The notes below the pieces were generated by a model, which was given only the letters and a program-made list of their open reading frames with translations, was not told the origin of the DNA and searched no databases. This document shows positions 1-21,965 of a stretch of DNA of 28,614 nucleotides, piece by piece (position 1 is the first letter of the stretch; the number at the start of each line of letters is the position of its first letter). A program made the translations under genes and the position numbers. The stretch is from a virus. Location of the stretch: positions 1 to 28,614 of IMG/VR virus record IMGVR_UViG_3300032217_000566. One strand, 5' to 3'.

Positions 1-45
1 CACGCTGGCACGTCACACGCTGGCACGTCACACGCTGGCACGTCA
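1..45. repeat. 15-bp tandem repeat, three perfect copies
   Basis: Three head-to-tail copies of CACGCTGGCACGTCA start at the first base of the window, so the array may continue to the left. A fourth copy begins (CACGC) and then breaks down. No reading frame of interest crosses it. It lies just upstream of the inverted operator array and may be a protein-binding iteron or simple tandem expansion; the sequence does not decide between them. Confidence 0.85.
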
Positions 46-85
46 CACGCCACCCGCATAGGCGTTCACTTGAACACTAGTCGCT

Positions 86-211
86 TGTCATATTTATGAC
101 ACTCTTTCCGTTGTCGTATTTATGACATGCCCCGTTCGCTTGTCATATTTATGACACTCTTTCCGTTGTCATATTTATGACACGCCCCGTCCGCTTGTCA
201 TATTTATGACA
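86..211 (-). promoter_or_regulatory. Array of five 16-bp palindromic operator-like sites, reversed orientation
   Basis: Five copies of TGTCATATTTATGACA lie at 86-101, 112-127 (one mismatch, TGTCG), 141-156, 167-182 and 196-211. Start-to-start spacing alternates 26, 29, 26, 29 bp, so the array is a duplicated 55-bp unit. Each site has 7-bp arms (TGTCATA/TATGACA) around a 2-bp centre. The centre is TT here but AA in the copies before rightward genes, so these read in the leftward sense. The simplest inference is that they control a leftward transcript starting near the window edge. No part of that gene is visible here. Confidence 0.8.
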
Positions 212-220
212 AACCCCGTC

Positions 221-332
221 CGTCAATTATTTTCTCCTATACAATATAAAAAGTCTTCTTTAGAATTCATTGACTAATGTGTCCGACACATTAGTCAACA
301 GTGTTATCATAAGACTTTTTAATTCGCAAAAC
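221..332. repeat. 112-bp direct repeat (left copy) containing a long imperfect palindrome
   Basis: This stretch matches 21853-21964 without gaps, with 10 substitutions. The first 37 bp are identical. The rest forms nested inverted repeats around one centre at base 284: an inner 14-bp arm pair (270-283 with 285-298) and an outer 10-bp pair (AAAAAGTCTT at 248-257 with AAGACTTTTT at 311-320). A and T runs at both ends would suit a bidirectional intrinsic terminator. However, this copy lies between the reversed operator array and the rightward early genes, where a terminator is not obviously needed. Origin, recombination site or regulatory hairpin are alternatives. Confidence 0.85.
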
Positions 333-550
333 ACAGCGACATATTAGGCAAAGATAAACACAGGGATTTCTGCGAACTATGAACCCCGATTCCTCGATCC
401 CGTATCCCTCGCCCGTATCCAGTAACACCTCGATCCTGTATCCCGCTTCGCACACCCGTATCCAGTAACACCTCGTCCGTATCGCACACCCGTATCCAGA
501 AACACCTCGCCCGTCCTCTAAAAATACTTTGCGATTCCTTGAAATACTTA
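333..550. repeat. Gene-free stretch with a 21-bp dispersed repeat
   Basis: I see no credible gene here. Three copies of a 21-bp unit beginning CCCGTATCCAG and ending ACACCTCG lie at 412-432, 455-475 and 489-509 (the last with one change). Between them are degenerate relatives such as CCCGATTCC and CCTGTATCCCG. The minus-strand open frame at 291-566 is made largely of this repeat and is not believed. The stretch ends at promoter P1. Confidence 0.7.
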
Positions 551-579
551 TTGACATTCTATACATAATATGCTATCAT
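551..579 (+). promoter_or_regulatory. Early promoter P1 (sigma70-type, extended -10)
   Basis: TTGACA at 551-556, a 17-bp spacer and TATCAT at 574-579, preceded by TGC (extended -10). The region 547-600 is nearly identical to P2 (928-977) and close to P3 (2679-2707), so it is a repeated promoter cassette. The predicted start is near 586, about 18 bases before the ATG at 604. Confidence 0.85.
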
Positions 580-603
580 ATATGGACAGTTGAGACAGAC
601 TGT

Positions 604-912
604 ATGAAGACTATGTATCCTAACACTACCACCGCCCGCTGCTCCTTGTCGGAGTGTCATAAATATGACACCTCCCACAAGCGGCAGAGAAAAGACATCA
701 CCCTAGCTGTATGCGACCACCTCGAAACTTTCCAGCCCGAACGCTGGAAGGCTCGCGAGAACTGGTCGTATAAAGCAAAGCGTCCAGCCGAAGCAAACAA
801 AGCGAACGCTGTCTTCAATAGACAGCTCAAGCAATGGGATCGCGCCTGTCAGAAGGGCGACCTAAAAGCAATCATGCGCCTCGCCACTCTTAACCCTAAA
901 TTACTTGCCTAA
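604..912 (+). CDS. Small basic protein, unknown
   Basis: This 102-residue protein is not recognised. It is rich in Lys and Arg and has a helical, charged C-terminal half (around ERWKARENW and NRQLKQWDRACQKG), which would fit a nucleic-acid or small accessory factor, but no family is claimed. The open frame extends upstream to 529, but that part runs through promoter P1, so the ATG at 604 is chosen; ATG 613 is also possible. There is no Shine-Dalgarno sequence. A 16-bp palindromic site (655-670) lies inside the coding sequence and encodes CHKYD. It is the first gene of the early block. Confidence 0.6.
   Translation: MKTMYPNTTTARCSLSECHKYDTSHKRQRKDITLAVCDHLETFQPERWKARENWSYKAKRPAEANKANAVFNRQLKQWDRACQKGDLKAIMRLATLNPKLLA
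655..670 (+). promoter_or_regulatory. Palindromic operator-like site inside an early gene
   Basis: A perfect copy of TGTCATAAATATGACA, about 69 bases downstream of the predicted P1 start and inside the first early gene. A position downstream of the promoter suits a roadblock (stoperator-like) or RNA-level site better than promoter occlusion. Confidence 0.75.
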
Positions 913-927
913 CCCTTTAGATTCTTA

Positions 928-956
928 TTGACATTCTGTCCATAATATGCTATCAT
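928..956 (+). promoter_or_regulatory. Early promoter P2 with overlapping dyad
   Basis: TTGACA at 928-933, 17-bp spacer, TATCAT at 951-956 with extended -10 TGC. The flanks match P1 over about 50 bp with two differences. In this copy the differences create a 9-bp inverted repeat, CTGTCCATA at 936-944 and TATGGACAG at 958-966, spanning the -10 and the predicted start near 963. Confidence 0.85.
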
Positions 957-994
957 ATATGGACAGTTGAGACAGACTCTACTGCAAAACAACC

Positions 995-1010
995 TGTCAT
1001 AAATATGACA
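995..1010 (+). promoter_or_regulatory. Palindromic operator-like site carrying a start codon
   Basis: A perfect TGTCATAAATATGACA about 32 bases after the predicted P2 start. The ATG inside its right arm (1005) opens the following gene. A 6-bp RNA hairpin with an AAAU loop could form and would hide this start codon. Confidence 0.78.
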
Positions 1011-1280
1011 CAACCTAAACCAATGAATATGAATACTACCACTACCACTACCACTACCACAATGCCAGCATGGCTGGCTTCCGAAATCGCAACCCGCCCT
1101 CATCTGACAGCTGTCGTGAAACAGCTGCGGAAATACTGCCATCAGGCAGTACCACCCCGCTATTCCAAAGGCGGAAAGCTTGCTCGTCCAACGGGCAAGC
1201 AAGTCCGCGCCGCTCGCGTGATGGCAAGAGCCACACGCCAGCTTGGAAAACACGCAGCCTATTGCGCTGCAACTTACTAA
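1005..1280 (+). CDS. Small very basic protein with poly-Thr N-terminus
   Basis: A 91-residue protein of unknown function. The start is uncertain: ATG 1005 lies inside the palindromic site and gives MTQPKP, the same opening as the next gene (MTQPQT), which favours it; ATG 1023 and 1029 follow. An ACTACC microsatellite (about 1033-1060) encodes nine threonines. The remainder is rich in Arg, Lys and Ala (KQVRAARVMARATRQLGK), like a nucleic-acid-binding tail. No ribosome-binding site is seen. It is likely transcribed from P2. Confidence 0.6.
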   Translation: MTQPKPMNMNTTTTTTTTTMPAWLASEIATRPHLTAVVKQLRKYCHQAVPPRYSKGGKLARPTGKQVRAARVMARATRQLGKHAAYCAATY

Positions 1281-1282
1281 CC

Positions 1283-1298
1283 TGTCATAAATATGACA
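1283..1298 (+). promoter_or_regulatory. Palindromic operator-like site carrying a start codon
   Basis: A perfect TGTCATAAATATGACA placed 2 bp after the stop of the preceding gene. The ATG of its right arm (1293) begins the next gene, the same arrangement as at 995-1010. Confidence 0.78.
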
Positions 1299-1532
1299 CA
1301 ACCACAAACTGAAATGAACTATCCAATCCACAACTTGACAGCCCGCTCACGGAAGCGGGTCACCCGCCGCATCCTCAACAAGCTCAGATACTTGCGGTGC
1401 TGGTGGAACGATGCGCTCTGCGAATCAAATGCCGCAGAGTTCGACGGCGATGTAATCGCCATGCTCCAACATGAGCAAGAGGCATCTGCCATCTCACAGG
1501 AGATCCGCGAGCTGGAAGGGAGGCTCGCATGA
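1293..1532 (+). CDS. Small charged protein, unknown
   Basis: A 79-residue protein, not recognised. The N-terminal half is basic (TARSRKRVTRRILNKLRYLR) and the C-terminal half is acidic and probably helical (QHEQEASAISQEIRELEGRL), suggesting a DNA-binding head and a coiled-coil tail. The start is ATG 1293 in the palindromic site or ATG 1314. Its stop overlaps the next start as ATGA (1529-1532), implying translational coupling to the small membrane protein. Confidence 0.6.
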   Translation: MTQPQTEMNYPIHNLTARSRKRVTRRILNKLRYLRCWWNDALCESNAAEFDGDVIAMLQHEQEASAISQEIRELEGRLA

Positions 1533-1684
1533 TCCCCGTATCCTCTATCCTGATCCTTGCCGCCGCCTCACTCGTAGGCTCAACGCTCCTTCACGGAGTC
1601 ATCAAAGGCTTCCTCAACTGGCTGGCTGTCATACTTATGACAGCCTTCCTCTACGCAGCATTCGCTATCGGATGCATCCTCTAA
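1529..1684 (+). CDS. Two-helix small membrane protein
   Basis: A 51-residue protein read directly from the sequence. It starts at the ATG overlapping the previous stop (ATGA) and ends with TAA at 1682-1684. It is strongly hydrophobic, with two likely membrane segments, roughly residues 6-23 and 31-50, separated by a short loop with HGVIKG. The size and topology resemble holins and other small phage membrane proteins, but nothing sequence-specific supports a holin call. A variant of the palindromic site (1627-1642) is embedded in its coding sequence and encodes VILMT. Confidence 0.6.
   Translation: MIPVSSILILAAASLVGSTLLHGVIKGFLNWLAVILMTAFLYAAFAIGCIL
1627..1642 (+). promoter_or_regulatory. Palindromic site variant with altered centre
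   Basis: TGTCATACTTATGACA keeps both 7-bp arms perfectly while the central AA is replaced by CT, and it does so inside a coding sequence. Retention of the arms but not the centre is what dyad recognition predicts. Confidence 0.65.
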
Positions 1685-1724
1685 CCTGTAACTACAAACT
1701 GAAACTACAAACTGAAATACACAT

Positions 1725-2444
1725 ATGTCACTACTAACTAGCTCTGATGCCAAGACTACAAAAGGTCAGCCCTTAGGCTACCTCACAGGCATCTTGTATC
1801 TTGCGCCCCACAAGATTGCGGGCCGCAACGTCTGTCCAAACGCAACGAAAGGTTGCGCCGCCGCTTGTCTCTACTCCGCAGGACGGGGCAAGTTCTCCAA
1901 TGTACAACAGGCACGGATCGCGAAGACGAAGAAGTTCTTCGCCGATCCCAAAGCCTTCGTCGATGAGTTGCGAGCGGACATCCTCGCGCTCATTCGCAAA
2001 GCCGCGAAGTCTGGACTCATCCCATGCGTCCGCCTCAATGGGACATCCGACTTGCCATGGGAGAAACTCAAAGGCACGAATGGCATGACGCTCATAGAGG
2101 AGTTCTCGCATCTCCAATTCTATGATTACACAAAGTCCGTGCAAAGGATGGTGGACTTCGTCAACGGCGACTTACCCGCCAACTACCATCTCACCTTCTC
2201 CCGTAGCGAGAAGGCTGGCATGGGTACTATCTACGCTGGCATCCAGAAGAGCGGCGGCAATGTCGCGGCTGTCGTCAACGTGAAGCGCGGCAAGCCATTG
2301 CCCGCCTTCAGCGGCGGCTCACTTCTAGTGGATGGAGACGAGCATGACCTCCGCTTCCTCGACCCGAAAGGGTGCATCGTTGGCCTCCGCGCCAAAGGCG
2401 ATGCCATCAAAGACACAAGCGGCTTCGTGCTTCGTGTAGCCTGA
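1725..2444 (+). CDS. GP88-like phage protein
   Basis: A 239-residue protein that I recognise as the phage family named after mycobacteriophage gene product 88. The signs are the GYLTGILYLAPH opening, the cysteine cluster CPNATKGCAAACL (about residues 37-49), then VRLNGTSDLPWE, FYDYTK, NYHLTFSRSE, a late VDGDEHDLRF, and a final LRAKGDAIKDTSGFV. The three closely spaced cysteines suggest metal or iron-sulfur binding, but the biochemical role of the family is not established as far as I know. Length is typical. The start is the ATG after an A-rich leader with repeated AAACTGAAA and no Shine-Dalgarno. Some positions in the family call come from memory, not alignment. Confidence 0.8.
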   Translation: MSLLTSSDAKTTKGQPLGYLTGILYLAPHKIAGRNVCPNATKGCAAACLYSAGRGKFSNVQQARIAKTKKFFADPKAFVDELRADILALIRKAAKSGLIPCVRLNGTSDLPWEKLKGTNGMTLIEEFSHLQFYDYTKSVQRMVDFVNGDLPANYHLTFSRSEKAGMGTIYAGIQKSGGNVAAVVNVKRGKPLPAFSGGSLLVDGDEHDLRFLDPKGCIVGLRAKGDAIKDTSGFVLRVA

Positions 2445-2476
2445 AACCTGAAACCCCTAACCTGAATCCTAAATCC

Positions 2477-2492
2477 TGTCATAAATATGACC
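2477..2492 (+). promoter_or_regulatory. Palindromic site, last base changed, carrying a start codon
   Basis: TGTCATAAATATGACC: one mismatch in the final base of the right arm. Its ATG (2487) opens the next reading frame. It follows a run of CCTGAAACC and CCTGAATCC-like units just after the GP88-like gene. Confidence 0.68.
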
Positions 2493-2762
2493 AATCAAAC
2501 CGTATACATTTGTCAGAAGCTCCGACTCCACAACGTGGAATCCAACTTGCCCATCAACGCGAATGCGATCCAGTATCTTACTTCGCGTCAATCATCATGG
2601 GAATCCCCGCCGATTCTCTGCCGCGACATCATCTTGTATAAGCGCAAAGAAAAACCTTTGCTCAACAAGAAAAAGATGTTGACATTCTATTCTCTATATG
2701 CTATCATATATGGACAGTTGATACAGGCACTCCAGTCTGTCTCAACTCCGAAGCTGTCATAA
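2487..2762 (+). CDS. Small hypothetical protein whose 3' end covers promoter P3
   Basis: A 91-residue open frame, not recognised. The first 55-60 residues read as plausible protein, with a basic stretch ending KEKPLLNKKK. The tail from about residue 64 is encoded by the promoter cassette P3, and the stop codon falls in the next palindromic site. This suggests that the promoter cassette inserted into or truncated an older gene, or that the true gene is shorter. The start is the ATG of the palindromic site at 2487. Confidence 0.42.
   Translation: MTNQTVYICQKLRLHNVESNLPINANAIQYLTSRQSSWESPPILCRDIILYKRKEKPLLNKKKMLTFYSLYAIIYGQLIQALQSVSTPKLS
2679..2707 (+). promoter_or_regulatory. Early promoter P3 (sigma70-type, extended -10)
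   Basis: TTGACA at 2679-2684, 17-bp spacer, TATCAT at 2702-2707 with TGC before it, then TATGGACAGTTGATACAG as in P1 and P2. It drives the DUF3150-like gene and probably the MoxR/VWA genes beyond. A palindromic site lies about 41 bases after the predicted start. Confidence 0.82.
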
Positions 2763-2770
2763 ATATGACA
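2755..2770 (+). promoter_or_regulatory. Palindromic operator-like site before the DUF3150-like gene
   Basis: A perfect TGTCATAAATATGACA, 30 bp before the ATG at 2801, followed by an A-rich leader (AAACTGAAACAACAAACACC). It is in the same polarity as the other rightward copies. Confidence 0.78.
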
Positions 2771-2800
2771 AACTGAAACAACAAACACCAACTAAATAAT

Positions 2801-3649
2801 ATGAATACTGAAGTAGGAATCCTAGTCAGAGTGTCCTTTGGCAAGTTCGCCCCGAAAGTGGCGAACAAGAAAGCCAGTCACGAATATGCTAATGCTCACG
2901 GCGCAGATGCCGCGATGCATAAGGCACATATGCTCCTCGTATCCGAGGAGTACACACAACCAATCCAGAAGTTCGAGTCGTCTGTCCGACAGAACTTCTT
3001 GAATGTCTACACCACTCCGTGGGAAAGAGGCGGCTCGTCGCTGCTTCCTGCGAAGTGTATCGACACCTTCATGTCGCAGATCGGTTTGCTCCGACAGGAG
3101 CATGATCGCCTCGTCGCAGAGTGGCTCGCGAAGTACGACACTATTATCGACGGCGCGAAGCAGAAGCTCAACGGCGACTTCGATGCCCGCCGCTATCCCT
3201 CGCGTGAGGAAGTGTCGCGCAAGTTCTATATGGAAGTTACCTACTCACCGCTTCCTGCATCTGGAGACTATCGCATCGATGTCTCTAAGGAACTGCTTGA
3301 GGAAGTCAAAGCAGAGACTGATCGCATCGCCGACCAACGCTTCGCTGATGCACGCCTTGAGTTGCGTCAACGCTTGATCGACAAGCTCCAGCATCTGTCT
3401 GACAGGTGCAAGGCTGTCAACGAGAACGACAAGGCGAAGTGGTACGAGTCGAACATCAGCAATCTCGTCGATCTATTCGACCTGATTCCGAAGATGCTGT
3501 TGGGCGACGATCCTGCACTTGAGCAAGCGATCCGTGATGCCCGTGCCATGTTGACTGGCATCGACTCCGACACGATCAAGTCCAGCGAGAACGTGCGTGA
3601 TGTCGTCCGCAAGAAAGCCGCGAGCATCATCAGCTCACTGCAATTCTAA
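2801..3649 (+). CDS. DUF3150-like protein
   Basis: A 282-residue, mostly helical soluble protein. The pattern LVRVSFGKFAPKVANKKA at the start, a helical middle with YDTIIDGAKQKL, and the FYMEVTYSPLP segment near residues 142-152 followed by a long charged helical region resemble DUF3150. That family is, as I recall it, often encoded beside MoxR ATPases and VWA proteins in phages. The neighbours here fit exactly, and context supports the call as much as the sequence. A role as partner or regulator of the AAA+/VWA machine is inference. The start is ATG 2801, without Shine-Dalgarno. Confidence 0.6.
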   Translation: MNTEVGILVRVSFGKFAPKVANKKASHEYANAHGADAAMHKAHMLLVSEEYTQPIQKFESSVRQNFLNVYTTPWERGGSSLLPAKCIDTFMSQIGLLRQEHDRLVAEWLAKYDTIIDGAKQKLNGDFDARRYPSREEVSRKFYMEVTYSPLPASGDYRIDVSKELLEEVKAETDRIADQRFADARLELRQRLIDKLQHLSDRCKAVNENDKAKWYESNISNLVDLFDLIPKMLLGDDPALEQAIRDARAMLTGIDSDTIKSSENVRDVVRKKAASIISSLQF

Positions 3650-3655
3650 TCTCAC

Positions 3656-3730
3656 AAACTAACGGGGGAAGCGCATCCGATCACGCTTACAATCTGTCAT
3701 AAATATGACACTCTGAAATACAACTATACA
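3656..3730 (+). promoter_or_regulatory. 75-bp leader repeat before the MoxR gene, with a palindromic site
   Basis: This stretch matches 6396-6470 with two substitutions. It contains a G-run, a short inverted repeat AAGCG/CGCTT, a -10-like TACAAT at 3688-3693 and a perfect TGTCATAAATATGACA at 3695-3710. No good -35 is present, so if this is a promoter it may need an activator. The predicted start would fall inside the palindrome, a classic repression geometry. Confidence 0.65.
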
Positions 3731-3742
3731 CTACACACTACT

Positions 3743-4810
3743 ATGTCTCATCCAGAAATTACATCCAACGATATCGCCGCCGTACTTGAACGCTCCGCTC
3801 TCAGCGGCAACAGGAAAGTACCACTCTTCTTAGGAGTATATGGCATCGGCAAGTCCTATCAGGGCAACCTGTTTGCACAGAAGACGGGCCGCGAGCTTGT
3901 CGATTACCGCCTGTCCTATCGCACCTTCAACGATGTCCGTGGATTCGGCATCCCGAATCGTGAGACGGGACGCATGGAGTGGCTGACTGACGAGGACTTC
4001 CCGCAAGATCCGAACGGACGCTACGCCCTGCACTGGGAGGAACTGACTAACGCCATGCCCTCCGTCATGAAGGTCGCCATGCAAGCGATCCTCGACAGGC
4101 GCATTGGCAAGTACCACTTCCCTGAGGATACGATCATGTTCGCATCTGGCAATCGTCTATCCCACAAGACTGGCGTTGAGCGTATGCTCGCCGCCCTTGC
4201 AGACCGCCTTGCCATCTACCATGTTCGTCCTGATCTGGATTCCTATATGCGATTCCTTGAGACTCATGGCAAGTCCGCAGAAGTCATGGCGTATCTGTCC
4301 AGCAATCCGACTGCCACTTACGACTTCGACATTGCGAAGTGGGATGGCGAGTCCAACTTGCCGACGTTCCGATCCTTCGACAGGCTCGACGATCTCGCCG
4401 CATCTTACACAGATACGAAGGAGATGGCCGCTGATCCCCTACTCCGTGCACACGCCGCCTCATGTGTCGGCGCAAAGCACGGCGAGCAGTTCGCGCAGTA
4501 CATCAAGCTGACCTCAGAGGTAGGAGATGTCGGCAAGATGATCGACGAAGCAGACACTTGTCACATCCCCAACGCAGTCGATATCAAGTGGCTCATTGCT
4601 TGCCGTTCGATTGTGCTTGCCAACAAGGAGAATCTCGCGCAAGTTCTGTTGCTCGCCCACCGACTAACCGATCCAACTTGTAGCGAGCAATCGTTACAAG
4701 CGATGGCGTCCTTCGTTGGCAACACTATCAAACGTAAGAAGCCAGATCTGATGCGCTCCAAAGCGATGATCGACTGGCACATCAAACATGGCGACACTCT
4801 CTCCAGCTGA
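3743..4810 (+). CDS. MoxR-type AAA+ ATPase
   Basis: A 355-residue ATPase. Walker A is GVYGIGKS (residues 31-38), Walker B YALHWEE (94-100), and sensor 1 is FASGNR with N137. ALADRLAIYHV (151-161) is where MoxR proteins place the conserved Arg region. A helical lid follows (to about 350). MoxR ATPases act as chaperones or chelatase-like motors and usually pair with a VWA partner, here two genes downstream. The ATG at 3743 follows the leader repeat with no Shine-Dalgarno. The 3' end overlaps the next gene by 23 bp, arguing for coupled translation. The ATPase call is strong; the substrate is unknown. Confidence 0.85.
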   Translation: MSHPEITSNDIAAVLERSALSGNRKVPLFLGVYGIGKSYQGNLFAQKTGRELVDYRLSYRTFNDVRGFGIPNRETGRMEWLTDEDFPQDPNGRYALHWEELTNAMPSVMKVAMQAILDRRIGKYHFPEDTIMFASGNRLSHKTGVERMLAALADRLAIYHVRPDLDSYMRFLETHGKSAEVMAYLSSNPTATYDFDIAKWDGESNLPTFRSFDRLDDLAASYTDTKEMAADPLLRAHAASCVGAKHGEQFAQYIKLTSEVGDVGKMIDEADTCHIPNAVDIKWLIACRSIVLANKENLAQVLLLAHRLTDPTCSEQSLQAMASFVGNTIKRKKPDLMRSKAMIDWHIKHGDTLSS

Positions 4811-5090
4811 ACTAGTAGACCAGATCCTGAATCATGAACCCCGATTCCCGTTCACTCAACGGATATCAGGCAACTATGACTATGCGATCTGGTTCAGTAG
4901 ATGGTTACGCACTATGGGTTCAAGTCACATGGTGCGTGACCTTACTTACTATTTAGTATCTGATGAAGTATATGAACTATGGAAGTGTCACAACGACATA
5001 ATGAAACAACTAGCAACTTGTCATAAATATGAAACACAACGTAAAGCAAATGATAGACAAAGCAATCGCAGTGATTGCAAACCAGTATGA
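4788..5090 (+). CDS. Small linker gene between MoxR and VWA genes
   Basis: A 100-residue protein, not recognised. Tyr, Trp and Phe are frequent in the middle (YDYAIWFSRWLRTM, YYLVSDEVYELW). It overlaps the MoxR gene by 23 bp and the VWA gene by 62 bp, so it is wedged tightly into the cassette. The last 20 or so residues, encoded across the palindromic site and the VWA start, may be extra: the useful protein may end near residue 78. The tight overlap suggests a role with the AAA+/VWA pair, which is inference. Confidence 0.6.
   Translation: MATLSPAELVDQILNHEPRFPFTQRISGNYDYAIWFSRWLRTMGSSHMVRDLTYYLVSDEVYELWKCHNDIMKQLATCHKYETQRKANDRQSNRSDCKPV
5019..5034 (+). promoter_or_regulatory. Palindromic site variant overlapping the VWA gene start
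   Basis: TGTCATAAATATGAAA: the right arm is degenerate at one base. Its ATG (5029) is the first possible start of the VWA gene, which makes this the fourth site carrying a start codon. Confidence 0.62.
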
Positions 5091-6393
5091 CTTCTTCGCC
5101 CCTGCGGCGTGTGCCATGCCGTGGGTCGAAGACTATAGTGTGCCGACTGCCTGTACTAATGGGCTTCGTGTCCGCTACAATCCAGACTTCGTAGCATCAC
5201 TCGCTCCGCCAGCAGTTGTCGGACTGATCATACATGAGGTGTGCCACCCGCTATTCGGGCATCTGGATCGTAGCAAGCACATGACTGATGACCACATGGC
5301 GAACATCGCCTTCGACTACGAGATCAACAATCTCATAGAGAAGTATAACGAGACGGCATCCCGCAAGATCGTCCTTCCTCCAGAGGGCTATGTCGATCTC
5401 GCCAAGTACAAGAACGAGGCGGGCGAGGTTATCTATCGCAAGCTTCAAGAGGAAGAACAGCAGAAGCAAGACGAGCAGAAGCAAGACGAGCAGAAGCAAG
5501 ATGGCGATGGCGATGGCGATGGCGATCCACAAGATGGCGATGGCGATCCACAAGATGGCGATGGCAATCCACAAGATGGCGATGGCAATGGCAAAGACGA
5601 CAAGCCACAAGATGGCAATGGCAAAGACGGCAAGCCACAAGATGGCGATGGCAAAGATGGCAAGCCACAAGACGGCAAAGGCAAAGCAGACAAGCCCTCA
5701 TCCAGCGGGATGTTTGAGAAGTGCCCTGAGCCGAAGCAAGCAGAAGAAGTTGCCACTCGCTGGCGTGAGATCCTGTCTAGCACCATCCAGACTTCTCGCC
5801 TCCGTGGCAATGTGTCTGGCGACTTCTTGCAGAAGTTCTCTGAGTTGCTCGATCCTCCTGTCACAATGCGTGACTTGCTTGAGAAGTATGTCTGCGACTT
5901 CGCCCTCGCAGATGACAGCACGAAGTCTGACAGACGCTGGCTTGCTAACCACGATATGTGTGTAGCTGGCATCGAGTCCGAACGACACGGCACGATTGTA
6001 TTCGTCAAGGATACCAGCGGATCTATCACAGACACAATCCTCAAGACTGCCTGTTCCGTGATTCAGGATGCCTGTAACACGCTCAATGCATCCCGTATCA
6101 TTGTGCTGGATGTCGATGCCGCAGTGTGCGATGTCAACGAGTACCTGCCCAATGAGGAGATACCCGCCACTTGCAAAGGTCGCGGCGGCACAGACTTCAG
6201 GCCAGCCTTCAAGTGGGTCGAGGAGAATGCGCCTGATGCCCGTGTCCTGATCTATCTCACAGACGGGTGGGGTATGTTCCCATCAGAGACTCCCGACATT
6301 CCAACACTCTGGTTGTCGTGGGATCTGGAAGAGTCTGGCTATCCTTTCGGTCAAGTTGTCGCACTCGATGTGCTTAACAACGCAGCCGCCTAA
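5029..6393 (+). CDS. HExxH metallopeptidase-like / VWA-like protein (COG3864/DUF2201 type)
   Basis: A 454-residue protein in three parts. The N-terminal domain has HEVCHPLFGH (HExxH at 69-73), as in the putative metallopeptidase part of VWA-like DUF2201 proteins. A low-complexity linker (about 143-225) is built of QDGDGDP, GNGKD and GKPQDG units. The C-terminal domain is VWA-like: the MIDAS motif D328-T-S330-G-S332, GGTDF (386-390) supplying Thr, and YLTDGWG with D412. These proteins typically partner MoxR ATPases, as here. Activity on a protein substrate is not shown. The start is ATG 5029 (in the palindromic site) or ATG 5050. Confidence 0.85.
   Translation: MKHNVKQMIDKAIAVIANQYDFFAPAACAMPWVEDYSVPTACTNGLRVRYNPDFVASLAPPAVVGLIIHEVCHPLFGHLDRSKHMTDDHMANIAFDYEINNLIEKYNETASRKIVLPPEGYVDLAKYKNEAGEVIYRKLQEEEQQKQDEQKQDEQKQDGDGDGDGDPQDGDGDPQDGDGNPQDGDGNGKDDKPQDGNGKDGKPQDGDGKDGKPQDGKGKADKPSSSGMFEKCPEPKQAEEVATRWREILSSTIQTSRLRGNVSGDFLQKFSELLDPPVTMRDLLEKYVCDFALADDSTKSDRRWLANHDMCVAGIESERHGTIVFVKDTSGSITDTILKTACSVIQDACNTLNASRIIVLDVDAAVCDVNEYLPNEEIPATCKGRGGTDFRPAFKWVEENAPDARVLIYLTDGWGMFPSETPDIPTLWLSWDLEESGYPFGQVVALDVLNNAAA
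5456..5703 (+). repeat. Short tandem repeats encoding the acidic linker of the VWA protein
   Basis: Successive units of AGCAGAAGCAAGACG, GATGGC and CCACAAGATGGCGATGGC encode a Gln/Asp/Gly/Lys/Pro linker of about 80 residues between the HExxH and VWA domains. The nucleotide units are nearly perfect, a sign of recent slippage, and length variation between relatives is expected. Opposite-strand open frames here are shadows of the repeat. Confidence 0.85.
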
Positions 6394-6395
6394 AT

Positions 6396-6470
6396 AAACT
6401 AACGGGGGAAGCGCATCCGATCACGCTTACAATCTGTCATAAATATGACAATCTGAAATACAACTACACA
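6396..6470 (+). promoter_or_regulatory. 75-bp leader repeat, second copy, with a palindromic site
   Basis: The counterpart of 3656-3730, with a perfect TGTCATAAATATGACA at 6435-6450 and the -10-like TACAAT just before it. The MoxR-to-VWA segment is therefore bracketed by direct repeats 2,740 bp apart. It is the last palindromic site I found; none was noticed over the remaining 22 kb. Confidence 0.65.
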
Positions 6471-6484
6471 AATAATACAACTAT

Positions 6485-7495
6485 ATGAAAGCAGAAGAAG
6501 TAATCAATGCCGCCCTTAACTTGTCCACTAAAGATGTGAAGTCATCCGCATTCAAGTGGATCGCCAGCAAGCAGCTACTCGTAGCTACAAAAGTAAAAGA
6601 AGGTGCGCCGTATGTGATCATGGCACGTTTCGACGGAGTGACGTTTGTACACTACGATATCGGAAAGTTCTCAGAGCGATATGCGGCTAAAGGTAAGTGG
6701 CGTGATGCAGTTACTAAGATCAGCGAGACTGATCTCGTTATTGCATCTACTGCCTATAGTGAAGTATATTCAGGGTACGCCCCTATCAAACGTAGGATGA
6801 GTAGCCACGCTTTGATGGCGACTATCCTTCGTCAGGCATTCGCGGCTGATGATTTCAATAGTCCGTGGGAATGCACGTGGGAGCATTTGCTGTGTGCTTA
6901 TGCCAGTCAGTTCAACAAGTACCGCAACGACTTGTCAACTGGTCTGTCAGCGTTCCACTATAGCCCTGAACTAAAGAAGATGAATGCACGTCTCGTTAAT
7001 CTGGACAGCGTTCTACGAGAAGGTACTGTCTACAATCTCAGAGAGAACTATGTACAACTAGAGCATGAGTTCTATCAAGTGCTGAACAATCTTCGACGTA
7101 TGAATAGTTTATCAAGTATGCCGTACTCAAGGGAAGACGGCCACGCGTATGCTAGAACAAAGCTTCTTGTGCAAGCTTACCCTAATCTCAATGGCATACA
7201 CTTAGGAGCGCGAGCAAAAGTACAAGACCTCATGCCGCACTGGCAGATCATGAACGGCGAGAAGATGCTCTCGCATTGGGACAAGTTGACTAACCTATTC
7301 AAACTGATGGGTCTTCCAGTTCCTACTCCATTTGGCATTGACTTCACAGACGAGAACATTCCCGCGCTCTCTGCATTGTACGATACTGCAAAACATAACA
7401 TGACCAACTATAGTAGTTGGTATCGTGAGACTAAGCTCGCGCCAACTGAGACTAAGCCTACTGCTAACACTGAACCAACATCACTCCTCGCTTAA
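6485..7495 (+). CDS. Hypothetical protein of 336 residues in the MoxR/VWA operon
   Basis: I do not recognise this protein. It is soluble and looks mixed alpha/beta at the N-terminus (KWIASKQLLVATKV, VIMARFDGVTFVHYDIGKF) and mostly helical later, with a Thr/Pro-rich tail (KLAPTETKPTANTEP). No catalytic motif stands out. It has the same duplicated leader and palindromic site as the MoxR gene, which argues for co-regulation. The ATG at 6485 follows CAACTAT without a Shine-Dalgarno. One base separates its stop from the next start (TAA-T-ATG). Confidence 0.72.
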   Translation: MKAEEVINAALNLSTKDVKSSAFKWIASKQLLVATKVKEGAPYVIMARFDGVTFVHYDIGKFSERYAAKGKWRDAVTKISETDLVIASTAYSEVYSGYAPIKRRMSSHALMATILRQAFAADDFNSPWECTWEHLLCAYASQFNKYRNDLSTGLSAFHYSPELKKMNARLVNLDSVLREGTVYNLRENYVQLEHEFYQVLNNLRRMNSLSSMPYSREDGHAYARTKLLVQAYPNLNGIHLGARAKVQDLMPHWQIMNGEKMLSHWDKLTNLFKLMGLPVPTPFGIDFTDENIPALSALYDTAKHNMTNYSSWYRETKLAPTETKPTANTEPTSLLA

Positions 7496-8542: not shown

Positions 8543-8905
8543 ATGAAGAAACAACAGGTGATGATCCCTGCAAAGATGCCTTCACATGATCCGCTGTATC
8601 ATAGATACGAAGCATGGAAGATCCTTACTGCTGTGTGTAAGATCTCTAGCATTAACATATCGCGTCTTGACTCAAAGGAGAGAAGCAAAGGTCTTACTGC
8701 ATGGCGTGACATAGCCTACTGCGTTGCTGAGAAGTTCTTTCTCATGTCTCCTACAGAAGCAGCCAAAGCATTCAATGTTTCTCGCTCCACTATCATCAAT
8801 AGTGGAACGAGAAGTGACAACCTAATCGAGTGTCAGTCGCACGCTGAAACGCAAACGTATGTCGATATGTTGTATCGGGTATACGATACGGCTATTGCGG
8901 GTTGA
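8543..8905 (+). CDS. DnaA domain IV-like DNA-binding protein
   Basis: 120 residues from ATG 8543 (the frame opens at 8474, but the stop-T-ATG junction favours 8543). Residues around 53-90 (WRDIAYCVAEKFFLMSPTEA, then AKAFNVSRSTIINSGTRS) follow the layout of the DnaA C-terminal helix-turn-helix: R..IAYCVAE, a helix, then ..FNVSRSTI. A second protein of this type lies at 24654. There is no AAA+ domain, so it cannot be a full initiator; it may bind DnaA-box-like DNA or be a regulator. Its 3' end overlaps the end of the giant minus-strand gene by 14 bp. Confidence 0.6.
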   Translation: MKKQQVMIPAKMPSHDPLYHRYEAWKILTAVCKISSINISRLDSKERSKGLTAWRDIAYCVAEKFFLMSPTEAAKAFNVSRSTIINSGTRSDNLIECQSHAETQTYVDMLYRVYDTAIAG

Positions 8906-11900
8906 GTTTGATGTAACGCGTGTAGCGGTTGAGTTCGTCATTGAACGTCTTCATCCGCTGCACGCCCACATCTCCTAAGCTCAACACCTTTTCGATGAAC
9001 GCTGGATTTGGGACTGGCTTCTCCGATAGTCCGTTGAAGATCAGACTAATGCGGCGATCCCCGTATCCCATATCCTGCTGCTTCATAAGTCCAGCGGCTT
9101 CCCGAATCCCGAATCCTGAATTAGGGATGTTGAGGAATCCACGAAGTCCCTTGTAAACTTCTTCATCAATACGGACGCGAGTCTCAACCCATTCTCTGGC
9201 AAGTCCCTTGACTTCGTCGTCAGACAGCGCACGCTGCGTCTTGAGTTGATTGATCCTACCAGTCAGATCGTTCCGCTCCTTCTGTTTATTGCGAAGGAAC
9301 TTCGTCGCACTCTCCGTCACATTGACTTCGCGTGGCTTGATCACATTGAACTCATCCAGTAGAATATGGAGTGGTGCATACTTATCATCAACAGCGAGTC
9401 CTTGAGCAGAGTTGAATGCCTCCCATGCTTTCTGTATCGTGCGCGGATTGAACGAGTTGTCGATAATGTAGCCTAACTTCTTAGCGTATTGCATGATGCC
9501 GTCAGACTCATAGAAAATTGGTTGCTTTGTACTACGATCTTGATTGTTCCATACATCGAGCAATGCTCCAGTAAAGATCTGCGTATCAAGATAGGTACTG
9601 GATAAGGCTCCAGTAAAGTCAGTCATAGCCTTTGAATAGTTTCCTCTAGAGATCTGTTCAAGGCTACGCAAGATCGGATCAGCAACTAACGAGTAAGGAT
9701 TAATGAACGTAAGGTCGCCTGACATCAGCTTCCCATCAAGCCATCTGTAGTAGAAGTATGTATTGTCCTTAGCAAACGATGGCATACCTTCACGGAGTGC
9801 ATCATCCTCGTCGTCTCCAATCCCCATCCAGCGTCGCAGAGCTTCAGAAGCCGCACCTGAGATGACAAATAAGACAGAGTTCATACCCCAAAAGCGTTTC
9901 TGCCCACGACTTCTGATGACTGGATTATCTGACTTCCGCTCTTTAGACGCGAGCTTGTAAGTGTTGAAGATGATCCGTGGCACTTCAGTCTTGTATCGCA
10001 AGAATGGAGCCACAAACATTCCGCCACTACGGACAGTCGCCTGAATAATTGCTGGAGCTTCTGAGTAACTCTGCGCTGTAGCGAGTACGTTGTCTGCTGC
10101 AAGACGCTTCATCTCATAGTCTGTCAGTTTAGCGTAGTACGAATCCGTATTGCCAGCATCGAGGTCATGCTGCTTTGCTTTCTGGAATGTCTCAAGTTCA
10201 TGGTGGAAGTATGCCATCTTGTAGAACCCATCGACTGCTCCAGATGCTGCCCGAAGTCTATCAGTCAATGGCGCAGTTGCATCAGATGCCTTTCCGTAAA
10301 CAGCCCCAGCTTTTTGCTTTACAGCTTGAAGCTTCTCCATAATCGAATTAGCTTCTGCCTTCAAACTCTCTGGAGTCTTACGACCTTTGAGAAGATCCTT
10401 AATAAGCGACGATTGCATCTCATTATTAAGTATGTTCAATGACACTAGCTCTGCTCTGTATGCATCGATGTCGTGCGGATCTTTCACAACTTGTCCGATA
10501 AGCTTCATGGATAGTCCCATTGATTTGAAGTTAACGAACCCTTGAGATGGGCCGAAGAACAACGTGTTACTCACAATGTTACGAAGATAGAATCCAATCG
10601 AACCCATCGTCTTAACACCTAAGGATAGTCCAGTAAGCTTGTTGAACAAGTTGGATACTTCTTTAGTTGCAAGCTGTGATGCTGTCAGGTTGTCATCGAT
10701 TACTGGAGGGCTATACATCTTACGCATTCCTTCGATTAGTTCAAGCGGCCCGTACATATTGTACGTCGGATCGTATGTCCCACCTAAGTCATCTGGAACA
10801 ATCTCTTTGGAATCGGGAACGTAGATCTTTCCAGTCCGAAGATTAGCGTAACGCTGTTGCGTTGTGGGATCTTTCTTAATGAGTGCCTTCAACTGTTCTT
10901 CAGTATACAAGAATCCCTGTTCGACTGGCAGTCCATCTTCGCCGACAACTTGATTGCCATCAGGATCTAGTACTGGCTTTGAACTACCCATTGAAATCAA
11001 GTTATTGTAGAATGACTGACGAGCAACCATTGTAGTAACTGTCGAGTAAGTATTCAGCAAGTTTGATACTGCCTCTGTGTCCTGACTATATTCACCTAAC
11101 AACGCACGGAGACGAGGATCGATATTCGTTTTCCTCTTGAGGTTATCGATAAGAGATTTAGTAACACCCTTCGCTAAGACTCCACTTTTACGGTTATACT
11201 CTGGATCATACGATCTGATATACTGAACCATCAGCTGTGCGGCAATTTCAGGATGATCATCTAGATAATCCTTAGCTTCGATTCTAGCTTGCTCCTTCGT
11301 GAGTGCCTTTGATCCATCAATCTTAGACTGCTTAGTCGAATCCTTGACTCTGATACTTGCTTCTTTCTTGACGTAAAGTTCGCGGAAATATTCCATTGCT
11401 TCATCACGAATCTTCACGAATGCTTCATCCTTAGACGTAAGAACTTTATCCACGTAGCCTTCTTCAGAGAAGGTGCGGTAGGATCGAGTGAGGTAGATAC
11501 CCATTCCCGCATCGAAACGCACAGCAAGTGAACCTTTCAGTCCGTATTGCTCTTTCACTTTGCGGGAAAAAGCATCCGTAACCTTACGCATTTCAAGCAG
11601 TGCCGCTGCAAGTTCAGGAGAAGTGAGAGAGATCTTTTCCAGAGCAGCAGACTGCTTACGGAGAATCTCGTCGCGTAGTCTGGAACGCTCTGCTGTAATC
11701 CGCTGCACAACAAGTCTCTGATGGACACTAGTCAGATACTCTTTAGATGTAAGCTTCGCGCTAGTTTCAGGATTGAACTCCCCGTCCCTCACACGTTGTT
11801 TTACTGTCGCAACATAGGTGCGGTATTCACTCTGGAACTTCTGCTTAAGCTCTTTTTCAATCTGAATAAATTCAGTTGTTCCAACAGCATCTGCAAGAAG

Positions 11901-14900
11901 ATCGGATGGTGCATTAGCTTCGCTGCCATATGCTTCCTTGATCTGCTTAGTAATCTTGCTTGTGAGCGACTTGCCTAATGCATCTGTTGCACGCTCGAAA
12001 GATTGCTGATTCTTTTTGAGCTTGATGACTCGCTCATCGATATCGCCTTTGATGAGTTTACTCCATGTACTGGAAGCGTGTTGGTAGTTCCCGTTCTTGA
12101 ATAGTGCCACAGGAAGTTCAAGTGTATCGAACAGATACTTAAAGCGTTCTTCGATTTCTTCATCCGTCGTATCGGGATTGACCTCCCTAGCTGTTGCAGC
12201 ATAGCGGCGGCGGAGTACTTCGACGTTAGCTTCTGGAGAGCGTGGATCGAATGGACTATGGTTATCGACATTACGACCTCCAGATTGCATGAACTCAAGC
12301 TCGACGGCCATGCGATGAATCATTCCAGCGACTTCTGGATTATCTTTATTCAGGTTGTAGCGGGCGTACATCCGCTTGAAGACACCTTTGAAGTAGCGGA
12401 ACATGATACGCATGAGTGACGGATCGCTCTCGTAGAATGCGATGTCTTCCTCTGTAGTGTAACCGCGAGTAATCTTCTGCTTCTCCATACGCAGCATCTC
12501 CCCGATAAGCTGGCGTTTGATCTCGCCATCCTCGTCATTCTGAAGAGCCTCACGCAATTGACTACGGCGACTAGGATTAGCTGTGTACTCATCGACGATG
12601 TTGTAGAAGTCCTGATCGATGAACGAGTCTGCCAAACCGTTTAGTTCCTCCGTCGAAATCGCATAGAACTCTGCAACGTGGTCAAGCTCTTCTCCGATAA
12701 GAGATTCAAGAATCGCCTTAGCGTTCAACGGATCACTGATAGTGGACTGCTGGTTTAGAAGTGCTTTGCCCATCGTCTCTCTGTTGATAAAGATTGCTGG
12801 ATAAGTTTCTCCAGCATCGTTCTTCATCAGAGCCGCGACAATTGCATCCTCAGGACGATCCGCAAAGATTCCGTGTGCGTCTGCTTCAGCTTGCGTGTTG
12901 AAGACTTCGACGCTCACATCAGCAGGAATCAGTCCGCGAACTGCTTGATCGATCAGAATGTTGATTACTTCCTTTTGCTCTGGCGAAGTATCGATATCCT
13001 CAGAGATCGATCCGAAGTTTGCGAAGCGTGTTTGCTGTTGCGATTCTGAAACCTTCTCAACTACAGGAATAATTCTACGACTGACTCCGACACTAATGGC
13101 TTCTTGAATACCTCTATCAATGTAGTCACGACTTGTTCTAGCCATGCTGCTGTTTCCAACTTCTGTAAAGTCCGTAAGGGCTGCAAGTGCCGTATCGAAT
13201 TCACTCGTTGGCTTGATGCCGAAGGCACTCAAGATCGCATCATAGATACGGGCAAAGAAGTTCTTACCCTTAGTCTTAGGATCTTGCAGGAACTTCAGGC
13301 TATTCTGAAAGTCTGAGGAAGAGAAGTACGTCGCAATGAACTCTTCAAAGTTCTCTGTAGCAAGCTCGAAAGCAACGCTACGCCTGCCAGTCAAACGGGA
13401 ATCCTCTGTGTACGCGGCTTTAGTAAGCTCGTAGAGTCCTTTAAGTCTTGCCTTTGCCGTGCGCTGCGATGACGTGAGTGAGACATCGGGTCTAGTAAGA
13501 AGATCAACAGTGAGAGCGTGAACGTACTCATGTAGCAGAACTGACTCTACGCCATTGCCATAATAACCTGCAAGATTGACTGAGACACGACCTCCGCCCG
13601 ATTCAAACGGAATGAAATTTCCAGCTTCGTTGTTGTTAATATCCGTGATAACAAACTGAATGTTGCGAATAATGTCTGGATTTTTCAACAAGAGTTTAGC
13701 AATGGCTTTATGGTTCTTATCCTTGCCACTCTTAGCAATAAGATTCAAAGCAGAAATAACGGACTCGACGTTTCCAGATTCAAGACTAAGTCTCTCGACT
13801 TCTTGATTGTTCTTGTTGCGATAGAAGGCGCGGTACTTATCAGAGATGAACGATGGGGCTGCATAGCTACGCTGACCGACACGGGCAGCAATAACAACAG
13901 AAGCAGCTTCTCCTGAACTCATTCCAATATCCATCAACTCTTTGATGGCGCGGCTTTCTTCTCGCATGAATTTGACTTCAGCTTCTGTAAAGCCCAATTC
14001 GTTCACCATACGCGATTGGACCTTCTTATTCCATTGTTGTCTAAAGTCATACTGGAATGATCCTGATGCTTCAAAGGCATCATATACCGCTCTAGTTGTA
14101 GCGTTAACTGTCTTGAAGGTGTCCAATACTTTTCTACGGAATAGGTGTGATTCCATTACTGAGAACCTATTACCAGATGGAGATGCCCACTGTGCAATTG
14201 CTGCAAAGCATTGTTGCCCACTCATATTATCTACTAACTGTGGGCTATCTTTAAAGGCAGTCTGTTTAGCTAGACGCTTCATAGCTCTTCCAATTTCGCC
14301 ATCTGATTTGATAACGGATAGTGCATCTCTTACAATGTACCGATTAACTTCAGCCAAATACGCTGCATCTTCAGCAGTATGTATGTAAGAAGTTGTACTC
14401 TCATCATAGCCGTATACTTCATTTAGCGCAGATTCAAATTCATTGCCAGTAACTTCTGAACGAAGTTTACTGTAAGCGTCTGCCTCTGCATTATCTCTAG
14501 TAGCCCTCTCGTATTCAAGACGATCTTTAAGGCGATCTCTAATTCTACTAACGATAGTTGGGACATTTGGAAAGTCTCCATTACTATCGGCGTGAGCTAT
14601 GTTATCATTGATAGTATTCAATAAGAACTGATCGACTACTTTATTTGCCCACTGAGGATCTAGAACACGCTCTGCGTTCTTCTTAGCAGATACTAAGATC
14701 TCAGGTTTTATGCTGCCTGTTTTAAATCCGAACGTGTAGAGGAAGCTTGCTTTGTTTTCTTCTGCTGACGTAACTTTTAGATCTTGATCTAGTTTAGCAT
14801 CAGACGGAACTGAAAGGCTGTTAAGCAAGATTGATCTAGCTTGTTCAGTTCCTTCTGGCTTGATCGAATACGTAGAACCATTCCGCACAAGGATGTCCGC

Positions 14901-17900
14901 AGCTTGCAGTGACTGAACAATGTGTCCGTATGTCAGGGCGCGTGTAAACTCTGGAATTACTTCCATCATAAACTTCAACTTAACATCTTGAACTTCATTA
15001 CTGCGAAGTCTAAGTCGATCTAAATTCGCAAGCTTGAATAGTTTATTTGCTGCTCCAATGTTTTTCTTATACAGTGTGTTATCACCGCCAACATTCTGTG
15101 TAATTGTTGAATACACATTGCCAAAGAAGTTATTTACATTTATAAGTGCTTCTACAAGTGAGAACTCTTTAGCTGGTGCAGCTTCTGTAATGTCACTAAG
15201 GTTTTTACTTACGGTTACTTTGCTCTCGATAGACGGTTTAAATCCAGCAAGCAAATCAAAACTATCTGCGATAGTTTTAGGTATCGTATTATCTGTTGGT
15301 TTACTCTTGTTCTTATGAACAATCGAAACTTTTTCAAGAGGGTTTGAAGGACTTGGGAATTCTACATCATAAATTATTCTTGTTGCTTTATCAAATTTAA
15401 TCGCTTTATTTACGGCTCCATTGAAGTTTGTAGGAACTTTGATAGGGATCTGTAACTTTAGAATATGTGCGACTGTAAACGGATTGTTGTCGAACACCCC
15501 AATCTTAACTCCGCTATCTTTATAGAGTTTGTATGGGATGCTAACATTTTGTTCGTAGTTTCCAGTAAATGGATTGAACCAACTTAATTTAGGAGTCTTT
15601 GTAGACTCCATGTTTTGAGTTAGTATCCCATATAGTTCTACTACTTCAGCTAAAGAAAGTGGTGGGTACTTAGCAAAAGTACGCGTCGCCAACATATTCG
15701 ATAGCTCATTGTAATCGATAGCGTCACTGTAGTTAGCGGGCATTCCAAATGCCGCACTCTTCTTAAAGCGCACGACTGCGCCTTCATCAGAAAGGTAGTC
15801 AAGAACTTTAGGAATTTGTTCATTGGCAACTTGTACAGCAACGGACGCACCCCTTACACGTTCTTCATCCGCGAGCCTAAGCTTTTCAATACGTACTCTC
15901 TCAGTTTCAGCTTTAGCTTCCGCCTTAGCTTGAGCTGCTAAGGCTTTAGCGTCACTTGGAACTTTAGGAGTTTTGGGTTCCTTAGGAGCTTTGGGTTCCT
16001 TAGGAGCTTTGGGTTCCTTAGGAGCTTTGGGTTCCTTAGGAGCTTTAGGTTCCTTAGGAGCTTTAGCTTCTTCTACTGCAACTGTCCGCAGACGCTCTGC
16101 AACAGCAGAAGCTTGAAACGGATCAACGTCGTTCTGAGAGGATAGCCGCTCACGAATTCGTTTGTCAGCAGCTTCAAGAGTTAAGCCTCGTCTAACGAGT
16201 GCCTGAACTGCTTCGTTATATTCCTGCCTTGTAAACGAAAGCGAGTCATCGGGTTGGCTTTGGATCGAGTACTTAAGATTCTTATCCGCTTCTGATTGAG
16301 GAAAGATTAAGTTGGGATCTAAAAGTGGGCTTTCGACAATAGCAATAGGAGAAGAGATTTGATCAAGTAAGTCTGGAAGAGCTTGTTCGGAAGTCTCAAG
16401 ATAAGCTCCTTGAACTGCGGCACGAAACTCTTCTGGAGAAATGTCACGAAGTCTTTTGATAATCTCGTCGGCTCTACTATCAGCAAGAGGCTGAATCTTG
16501 AGTTCGTTGATTGGGATGGAAAGAACATCGGGAGTAGCGTCAGCATTGCCAGCCTCTACTTCTGCCATCGTAGTATTATCGTCACCGATTTTAACGTATG
16601 CAATCGGCCCGTTCTCAGATTCGGCGACGCCAATAACTGTGCCAGAATAGAATCCTTTGCTAGTGCGGCCTGATGCAACTTGTCCAATAAGCGGGTTTAC
16701 CTCTTCTTGTTCTGGTGCAACTTCTGCCGTATCAGTACGGAGACTCTGAGCAACAGAAGAAGTAGCGAAAGGCTTCTTGATTGCGCCTGTGAGATTAGCA
16801 TCTTCGATTGGCTTCCTTGATTCGGCAATACGATCAAGCACACTTTTGATATTGCTGCGAAGCTTATCAGCGGTGTCGGGCATCGAGTTGGCTGTCGGTG
16901 CAAGATCACGATTAGTCGCCAGTACGTGTGGATGCTCTGGATTTCCAGAAGATACTTTGACAATGTTGAGCTTACGGATATCTCCAACAGTCTGGTTTAG
17001 ATAATCTGCAACAGCTCGCAGATCTTCAGATCCATAGAAATTATTGATGTCTTTTCCTGAAGTTTTATTGAACCATCCATCTGAGCCAATGCCAAAGATC
17101 GGATACCACTTGCCTACAGCAACGTCAGCTTTGCCGCCAGATCCAGTACTGATGTAGAACGGCACACGAATGCCATTGATAGACGCAAGCACTAACGGTC
17201 TTCCAGAATAGTCCAGCACTCTAGCTTCACCAGACTGCTCTTCAAGAGGTCCGCCAGTTACTGTAGCGTACTTAGTAGTATATGGCGCAGAATCAAAAGT
17301 AACTTTGTTGCCGTTGATATCTGCCGCTTGTGCCAAGACAGATTCAAGCTGCTCAGGATTACTGAAAGACGCTGGCGTAGTTGGCGCAGCTGGTGCGGGT
17401 AGTGCTGGAGTTGCTGCGTTAGCCTGTGGTTTAATGCTTCCAGTTCCGATTAGTCCGACAGCGTTTCTTGCACCAGCAACGGCAGTAGCAGAAGTTTCTT
17501 CTGGCTTATTAGCCATTGCGTTCAGCTGGTCTAGCGTAACAAACTCATCTGAGTTCGCAGCAGCGGCAGCTGGATTAGCCGCAGATGGCTTTGCGGCAGC
17601 TGGAGCAGTAGCCTTTTGTTGCGGTGCAAAGATGCGCTTCTCGATTGCTTCAGCCGTAAGTGGACTACCAGCAGCACGTAAGTTTTCAGCAATTTGATTT
17701 ACGACAGAAGACTTTGCAGCATCTCGACTCTCAGCATCGATCTCTCCGCCTCTCGCGAATTTGCCCAACGTCGCACGGAAAGCTCCAGTTGCTCCACCGA
17801 ATACGCCGCCGTATACTGCCGCCATTCCTGATTGCTTAATGCGCTCAAGCATTGGACGGTCTTGACCCGTGAATCCTGTTTCAACAAACCCGTTGATAAA

Positions 17901-21796: not shown

Positions 21797-21852
21797 CACA
21801 TTAGCAATACAGGCGTTCAACTTAACACCGCCTACTTTAAATAGGTGGGATT

Positions 21853-21964
21853 CGTCAATTATTTTCTCCTATACAATATAAAAAGTCTTATTTAGAAGTC
21901 CTTCACTAATGTGTCGGACACATTAGTGAACAGTGTTATGATAAGACTTTTTAACTTACAAAAC
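21853..21964. repeat. 112-bp direct repeat (right copy) with long palindrome, next to terL stop
   Basis: The second copy of the 221-332 element, same orientation, starting 21,632 bp away. The inner 14-bp arms (21902-21915 and 21917-21930) carry paired changes relative to the left copy: G272/C296 there is C/G here, so pairing is kept. The outer arms end in AAAAAG and CTTTTT. It ends 2 bp beyond the terL stop, so on the minus strand it can act as a terL terminator, with T runs on both strands. Flank conservation beyond the stem suggests an additional function. Confidence 0.85.
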
Positions 21965-21965
21965 G

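Follow-up and report, generated by a model that had tools for sequence, protein, structure and literature searches.

A 16-bp palindrome that recurs through the early region of an uncultivated phage probably serves as the switch site for a phage regulator of gene activity, and this regulator would repeatedly shift to a new target sequence. With a little more than even confidence, we read its copies as operators of a phage-encoded, probably dimeric HTH regulator, most likely the protein encoded at 8543-8905, which would roadblock transcription over the whole early region. In the evolution of phage immunity, it is an open question by what route a regulator can switch specificity in step with twelve or more scattered operators. 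Here, close relatives represent four states of this process, with a single base pair per half-site separating two of them, and a small co-varying HTH protein can be named; the question of the specificity switch thereby becomes directly testable with synthetic DNA sites and a handful of purified proteins. Moreover, these sites give initial access to gene regulation in an uncultivated family of phages that may infect Verrucomicrobiota and whose genes lack Shine-Dalgarno sequences. Assembled metagenome contigs underlie all results, including those on relatives, and the window analysed is a virus record of 28,614 bases (Table 1).

A repeated palindrome in the early region

The palindrome TGTCATANNTATGACA is found at 14 places in the window with at most one arm change (the centre excepted), which amounts to 28 matches on both strands, whereas 100 dinucleotide shuffles give a chance expectation of 0.32. 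The 14 copies claimed by the original prediction are thus borne out, five of them forming an array at 86-211 and nine standing singly between 655 and 6450, with no further copy elsewhere in the window. Exact TGTCATAAATATGACA accounts for 10 of the 14, and one arm change each is seen in the copies at 112 (TGTCGTATTTATGACA), 2477 (last base C) and 5019 (TGTCATAAATATGAAA), while the copy at 1627 combines intact arms with the centre CT (TGTCATACTTATGACA). Strong conservation is thus limited to the arms, and the centre can vary, being mostly AA or TT; on the plus strand it reads TT in all five array copies, which are spaced by 26, 29, 26 and 29 bases, and AA in eight of the nine single copies.

Non-coding DNA makes up just 7% of the interval 587-6484, yet it is touched by six of the nine single sites. 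As a correction to the first reading, the single sites do not all fall in leaders: the site at 655 lies within gene 1 (604-912), the site at 1627 within a possible 51-aa ORF, and the site at 5019 overlaps two ORFs. At the position equivalent to 5019, neither G002 nor G003 has a dyad, and the similarity at this weak site could be coding-driven. P1, P2 and P3 are near-consensus predicted sigma-70 promoters with extended -10 boxes, and the next site follows their predicted starts at 69, 32 and 41 bases, respectively, in agreement with the expectation that sites lie downstream of promoters; overall, this distance is 32-72 bases. With the promoters placed so far upstream, the sites would act on elongation or on the message, as the first reading of the sequence had proposed. 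The remaining sites occur in the leaders or at the starts of later genes, including those for the MoxR-type ATPase and the VWA/metallopeptidase.

Table 1. Features of the early region and the adjoining array in the window.
Feature	Position	Strand	Remark
Array of five palindromes	86-101, 112-127, 141-156, 167-182, 196-211	-	AA centre reads leftward; second copy with one arm change
Inverted-repeat element between array and P1	226-322	.	Core of CTAATGTGTCCGACACATTAG type within AAAAAGTCTT/AAGACTTTTT; second occurrence at 21850-21965; direct reading
Predicted promoter P1	551-579	+	TTGACA-17-TATCAT, extended -10; 11/12 matches; repeat family D3
Gene 1 (102 aa), fast evolving, candidate regulator no. 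2	604-912	+	Site in coding sequence in 4/4 compared genomes
Site in gene 1	655-670	+	Motif search
Predicted promoter P2	928-956	+	TTGACA-17-TATCAT
Site at start of ORF 1005-1280	995-1010	+	32 bases past predicted P2 start
Site at start of ORF 1293-1532	1283-1298	+	Motif search
Site with changed centre in ORF 1529-1684	1627-1642	+	TGTCATACTTATGACA; motif search
Site with last base changed, at start of ORF 2487-2762	2477-2492	+	Motif search
Predicted promoter P3	2679-2707	+	TTGACA-17-TATCAT
Site in leader of 282-aa gene (2801-3649)	2755-2770	+	41 bases past predicted P3 start
Site in leader of MoxR-type ATPase gene (3743-4810)	3695-3710	+	
Weak site over start of VWA/metallopeptidase gene (5029-6393)	5019-5034	+	TGTCATAAATATGAAA
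Site in leader of 336-aa gene (6485-7495)	6435-6450	+	
HTH protein (120 aa), best candidate regulator, last gene of early block	8543-8905	+	Bac_DnaA_C (DnaA domain IV) type

Several further sequence features accompany the early genes. Shine-Dalgarno sequences precede 3 of 104 phage ORFs, compared to a background of 14%, and the leaders are poor in G. The leader sequence GGGGGAAGCGCATCCGATCACGCTTACAA is repeated right before the dyad (window 3657-3691 and 6397-6431; L010:2838-2870 and 5527-5560), and in one copy each of G002 and G003 the stem AAGCG/CGCTT is replaced by GAGCG/CGCTC, a compensatory change that suggests an RNA hairpin. In addition, early messages of G002 and G003 would start with a hairpin AGTTGG..CCAACT or GGTTGG..CCAACC, again with a compensatory change (L010:725-770; L016:655-700 and 2250-2285). 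Rfam gave no match to known RNA families in the window. The long inverted-repeat element with a CTAATGTGTCCGACACATTAG type core recurs at several module boundaries (window 226-322 and 21850-21965; L014:10895-11009), adjoins leftward gene starts at two of them and is possibly a promoter or terminator. Variable tandem repeats are located at contig ends by the dyad array, as 15-bp units in the window (1-50) and at L010:1-200 and as GTCACGCT-type units in G001 (L014 right end); they probably explain the assembly breaks and are probably a sign of a circular or permuted genome.

Palindrome classes in related phages

The palindrome of the window recurs in G001 (ATPase 99%) in 16 copies, 15 of which lie in the first 6.4 kb, and one more, with one change, at 61571 of 62920. 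This genome is nearly complete and is the only one for which the full gene set from portal to array is known, the other two of the three close relatives, G002 and G003 (ATPase 80%), being incomplete. These two contain no copy of the window palindrome and carry other palindromes at homologous places: TGCATTA-AA-TAATGCA in G002, with exact arms in all 13 copies, and TGCAGTA-AA-TACTGCA in G003, with exact arms in all 12, which fall within the first 5.9 kb of 60.8 kb. Thus, the four compared genomes share one layout and have three different palindromes. Although the DNA of G002 and G003 is 83% identical over 6.2 kb, all sites common to both differ by one identical symmetric base pair, while the other arm bases are unchanged. 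Such a concerted symmetric change at many sites with unlike flanks argues for a trans-acting factor, and the sites common to both genomes point to a putative dimeric DNA-binding one. The fixed arms, the variable centre and these concerted arm changes uphold the idea of dyad recognition, and a multi-site early regulon, as originally proposed, is supported. Moreover, the site in gene 1 is coding in all four genomes and encodes different residues in each palindrome class, which indicates that it is kept as nucleic acid.

The polarity of the sites, which had been described as fixed, is so in the window but has exceptions in the relatives. The G002 array combines four AA with two TT centres, the site at L010:883 of this genome is symmetric (AT), and a single site of G003, at L016:1039, is reversed; the argument from fixed polarity is weakened by these reversed and symmetric sites.

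Two fragments extend the known classes, G007 being of the TGTCATA type and G011 of the TGCAGTA type. In G049, TGCAATA overlaps TGCATTA in one leader, so that there are four palindrome classes in all, the last of which rests on this single leader with two overlapping, unlike palindromes. In a distant branch (terminase 78%), the dyad is an unrelated one, GGTTAAC-N4-GTTAACC, and occurs in 7 copies in G026, where one stands before nearly every early gene, and in 10 copies in G023. No repeated palindromes were found in searches of G020, G022, G046, G006 and G035. In G020, a TTGACA promoter of almost the same sequence, followed by only a very short leader, takes the place of dyads before several early genes (L126:4738-9100). 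The TAGGCA repeat of G004 and G006 was rejected as a feature of the same kind, since it is a longer direct repeat, and searches of INPHARED by DNA, terminase and HTH protein revealed no relative.

The expectation that the palindrome would not be common in a host genome holds as far as it could be followed: the 3.2-Mb Opitutae MAG G050 contains no copy with fewer than two mismatches. The Opitutae are the only hint of a host, based on two contigs in this one MAG, and the assignment is weak. A host regulon, in which the site would be repeated in the host genome, finds no support in this MAG.

The candidate regulator and alternative explanations

The protein encoded at 8543-8905 is predicted to be an HTH protein of the DnaA C-terminal type, with a Pfam match to Bac_DnaA_C (7.5e-8) that is above the cut-off in the window and G001 and below it in G002 and G003, and a PDB profile hit to DnaA domain IV (9.6e-5). 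A second DnaA-domain-IV-like protein is encoded at 24654-24959 of the window near the small terminase gene and is conserved in many terminase relatives. Among seven records, the identity of the HTH protein is 92-98% within the TGTCATA class and 26-44% between classes. It amounts to 93% between the window and G001 and to 44% between G002 and G003, whereas most early proteins of the latter pair are 73-95% identical, the exceptions being this protein and gene 1 (40%). Similarly, the identity between G049 and G003 drops from 83% for the gene immediately upstream to 37% for this protein. The recognition helix region co-varies with the palindrome and is different in each of the four classes (VSRSTIINSGTR, VTKKTIIESNLR, MSSSRIRNSSMR and VSPAVIKAANMR). 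However, this co-variation represents few independent events, because the window, G001 and G007 are close and no difference exists between G003 and G011 over the compared stretch, so that the records with TGCAGTA give no independent support. The 336-aa protein, for which the AlphaFold model is poor (pLDDT 42), correlates with the palindrome more weakly, since its identity is 32-34% for G049, yet 73% between G002 and G003. In DnaA itself, domain IV binds asymmetric boxes as a monomer, and binding of the HTH protein to the palindrome as a dimer, in the manner of TrpR, a member of the same Trp repressor/DnaA domain IV superfamily, is therefore an assumption.

The palindrome could alternatively be a leader hairpin that is bound or cut as RNA and confers gene-by-gene control of translation or decay; RegA and RegB of T4 exert RNA-level control at start sites. 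There is one site per leader and not per promoter, the polarity is mostly one way relative to genes, the sites lie in transcribed DNA, and some leaders of G026 and G023 extend the stem through G-U pairs, where these longer, G-U-kept stems may reflect an RNA role. Nevertheless, the stem is fixed and the loop varies (AAAU, AAUU, ACUU, AUUU), the opposite of what most RNA-protein hairpins show, sites within one genome lack compensatory double changes, the sense strand folds weakly (mostly -3 to -10 kcal/mol) and nearly all leader sites fold no better than with shuffled flanks. Furthermore, the array is located upstream of P1, and reversed and symmetric sites exist. The fixed stem with its variable loop, the lack of compensation within a genome, the reversed or symmetric centres at homologous places and the scant flank pairing in the group of the window favour DNA, and control by RNA is considered unlikely. 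Sequestration of the start codon was rejected, as the dyads of G003 contain no ATG. The DNA-operator mechanism would stay unchanged if gene 1, instead of the HTH protein, encoded the regulator, a substitution to which we assign a rather low probability. This is the first early gene, it has sites in its own leader (in G002 and G003) and in its coding sequence, and it is 40% identical between G002 and G003. However, no DNA-binding family was detected in its product, the all-helical AlphaFold model is poor (pLDDT 65, pTM 0.35) and found no match in a fold search of the PDB, and where the palindrome is shared its identity is 84%, compared to 93% for the HTH protein, so that its divergence tracks the palindrome less well.

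A set of replication-origin iterons or a partition centromere, with the array as core and the single sites as secondary elements, is improbable. The tandem array does lie in a non-coding region beside the 15-bp repeat tract and the inverted-repeat element, and a DnaA-domain-IV-like protein has a replication-type fold, but no match to the ParA family was found, single sites that go with genes account for half of the total or more, and the array spacing varies (26/29 in the window, 26 in G001, 24-89 in G003 and 30-50 in G002). It is very improbable that the sites are short repeats at the boundaries of gene cassettes, spread by recombination, even though the gene at 1005-1280 of the window is missing from G001 with the homology breaking exactly at the dyad-containing 25-base repeat (L009:967-991 aligns to window 991-1015 and 1279-1303), and the homology of G002 and G003 restarts at a site (1338/1685). 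Cassette repeats account for gene gain and loss, but leave unexplained why sites in unrelated flanking sequence change in concert by one base, and the cassette boundaries are probably a consequence of the repeats. Hairpin promoters of the N4 type, read by a virion RNA polymerase, have the least to be said for them. The early MoxR ATPase and VWA genes resemble those of N4-like phages, and a 3723-aa virion protein has weak local tblastn matches to annotated virion RNA polymerase proteins; however, a polymerase domain is absent from it by Pfam, PHROGs and PDB sequence search, strong sigma-70-like promoters already lie upstream, and the distance from site to start codon varies. Part of this virion protein (window 8892-20063) matches the annotated ADP-ribosyltransferase of Pseudoalteromonas phage vB_Pun_Y3, and N4-like virion polymerases match it weakly.

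Proposed mechanism and known systems

In the preferred reading, in which the palindromes are DNA operators of the HTH protein, host-type sigma-70 promoters would start the early messages, and the regulator, presumably as a dimer, would bind the dyads 32-72 bases downstream of the promoter starts and again those in later leaders. Once bound, it would slow or stop RNA polymerase and thus form a distributed roadblock. The DnaA-domain-IV-like protein, encoded last in the early block, would accumulate until its own operon is shut off, early shut-off being the presumed purpose of this putative repression. The place of the HTH gene at the end of the block makes negative feedback on its own transcription unit the simplest reading; against the HTH protein as regulator speaks that its gene has no site immediately ahead of it. 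A wider proposal, which is more doubtful than probable, is that a non-integrating lineage uses an HTH protein of the DnaA-domain-IV type for shut-off in the manner of stoperators, that regulator and all operators switch specificity together between sisters, and that this could create mutual exclusion groups without classical lysogeny; G026 and G023 would follow the same design of one dyad per leader with their unrelated dyad.

In phiC31, symmetric conserved inverted repeats distributed across the early region are bound by the phage repressor; the palindromes described here are alike in being symmetric early-region repeats and unlike in sequence, repressor type and host. The N4 virion RNA polymerase promoters differ in that a virion protein with an RNA polymerase domain was not found in this case. 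Cluster K mycobacteriophages have ESAS, imperfect 17-bp inverted repeats with a spacer that lie over a putative promoter upstream of the 13-bp SAS (PMC3203893, PMC11373665). As in the present case, these inverted repeats occur in many gene leaders, show lineage-specific half-site changes and have been argued to be DNA-protein sites and not RNA hairpins (PMC3203893, PMC11373665), whereas here a compact dyad lies downstream of the separate promoters P1-P3 and no 13-bp start-adjacent element was seen. In SPbeta, a repeated element is bound by the prophage protein MrpR (PMC10516654), and the likeness consists in one element at about ten phage loci with one phage regulator; unlike the sites of the window, the SPbeta elements lie in promoter regions, and MrpR has a tyrosine-recombinase fold.

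The stoperators of L5 and other Cluster A mycobacteriophages, with which the sites had originally been compared, are asymmetric 13-bp sequences present in 20-30 copies throughout the genomes of temperate phages and have a known repressor (PMC6550527). Both systems have many copies, most of them outside promoters (PMC6550527). Stoperators are mostly oriented with transcription; here, the single sites are nearly all AA forward, while the relatives have one reversed and one symmetric site and the G002 array is mixed. The position downstream of predicted promoter starts is shared. At stoperators, the bound repressor blocks elongation, and the regulator proposed here would do likewise. Moreover, the stoperator consensus differs between related phages together with differences in the cognate repressor, just as the candidate HTH protein co-varies in silico over four classes. 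In contrast, the sites described here are 16-bp symmetric dyads with 7+7 arms; they number 14-16, and a single early block of 6.5 kb contains nearly all of them. Membership of the L5 class does not stand, because the sites are symmetric and restricted to early genes, and because the integrase or parABS genes of a temperate phage, like a repressor of the CI type, did not turn up: five records (G002 and G003 incomplete) gave no match to PF00589 (integrase), PF00239 (resolvase), PF13614 (ParA) or PF01381 (HTH_3). Thus, the feature would work like stoperators without being a member of their class.
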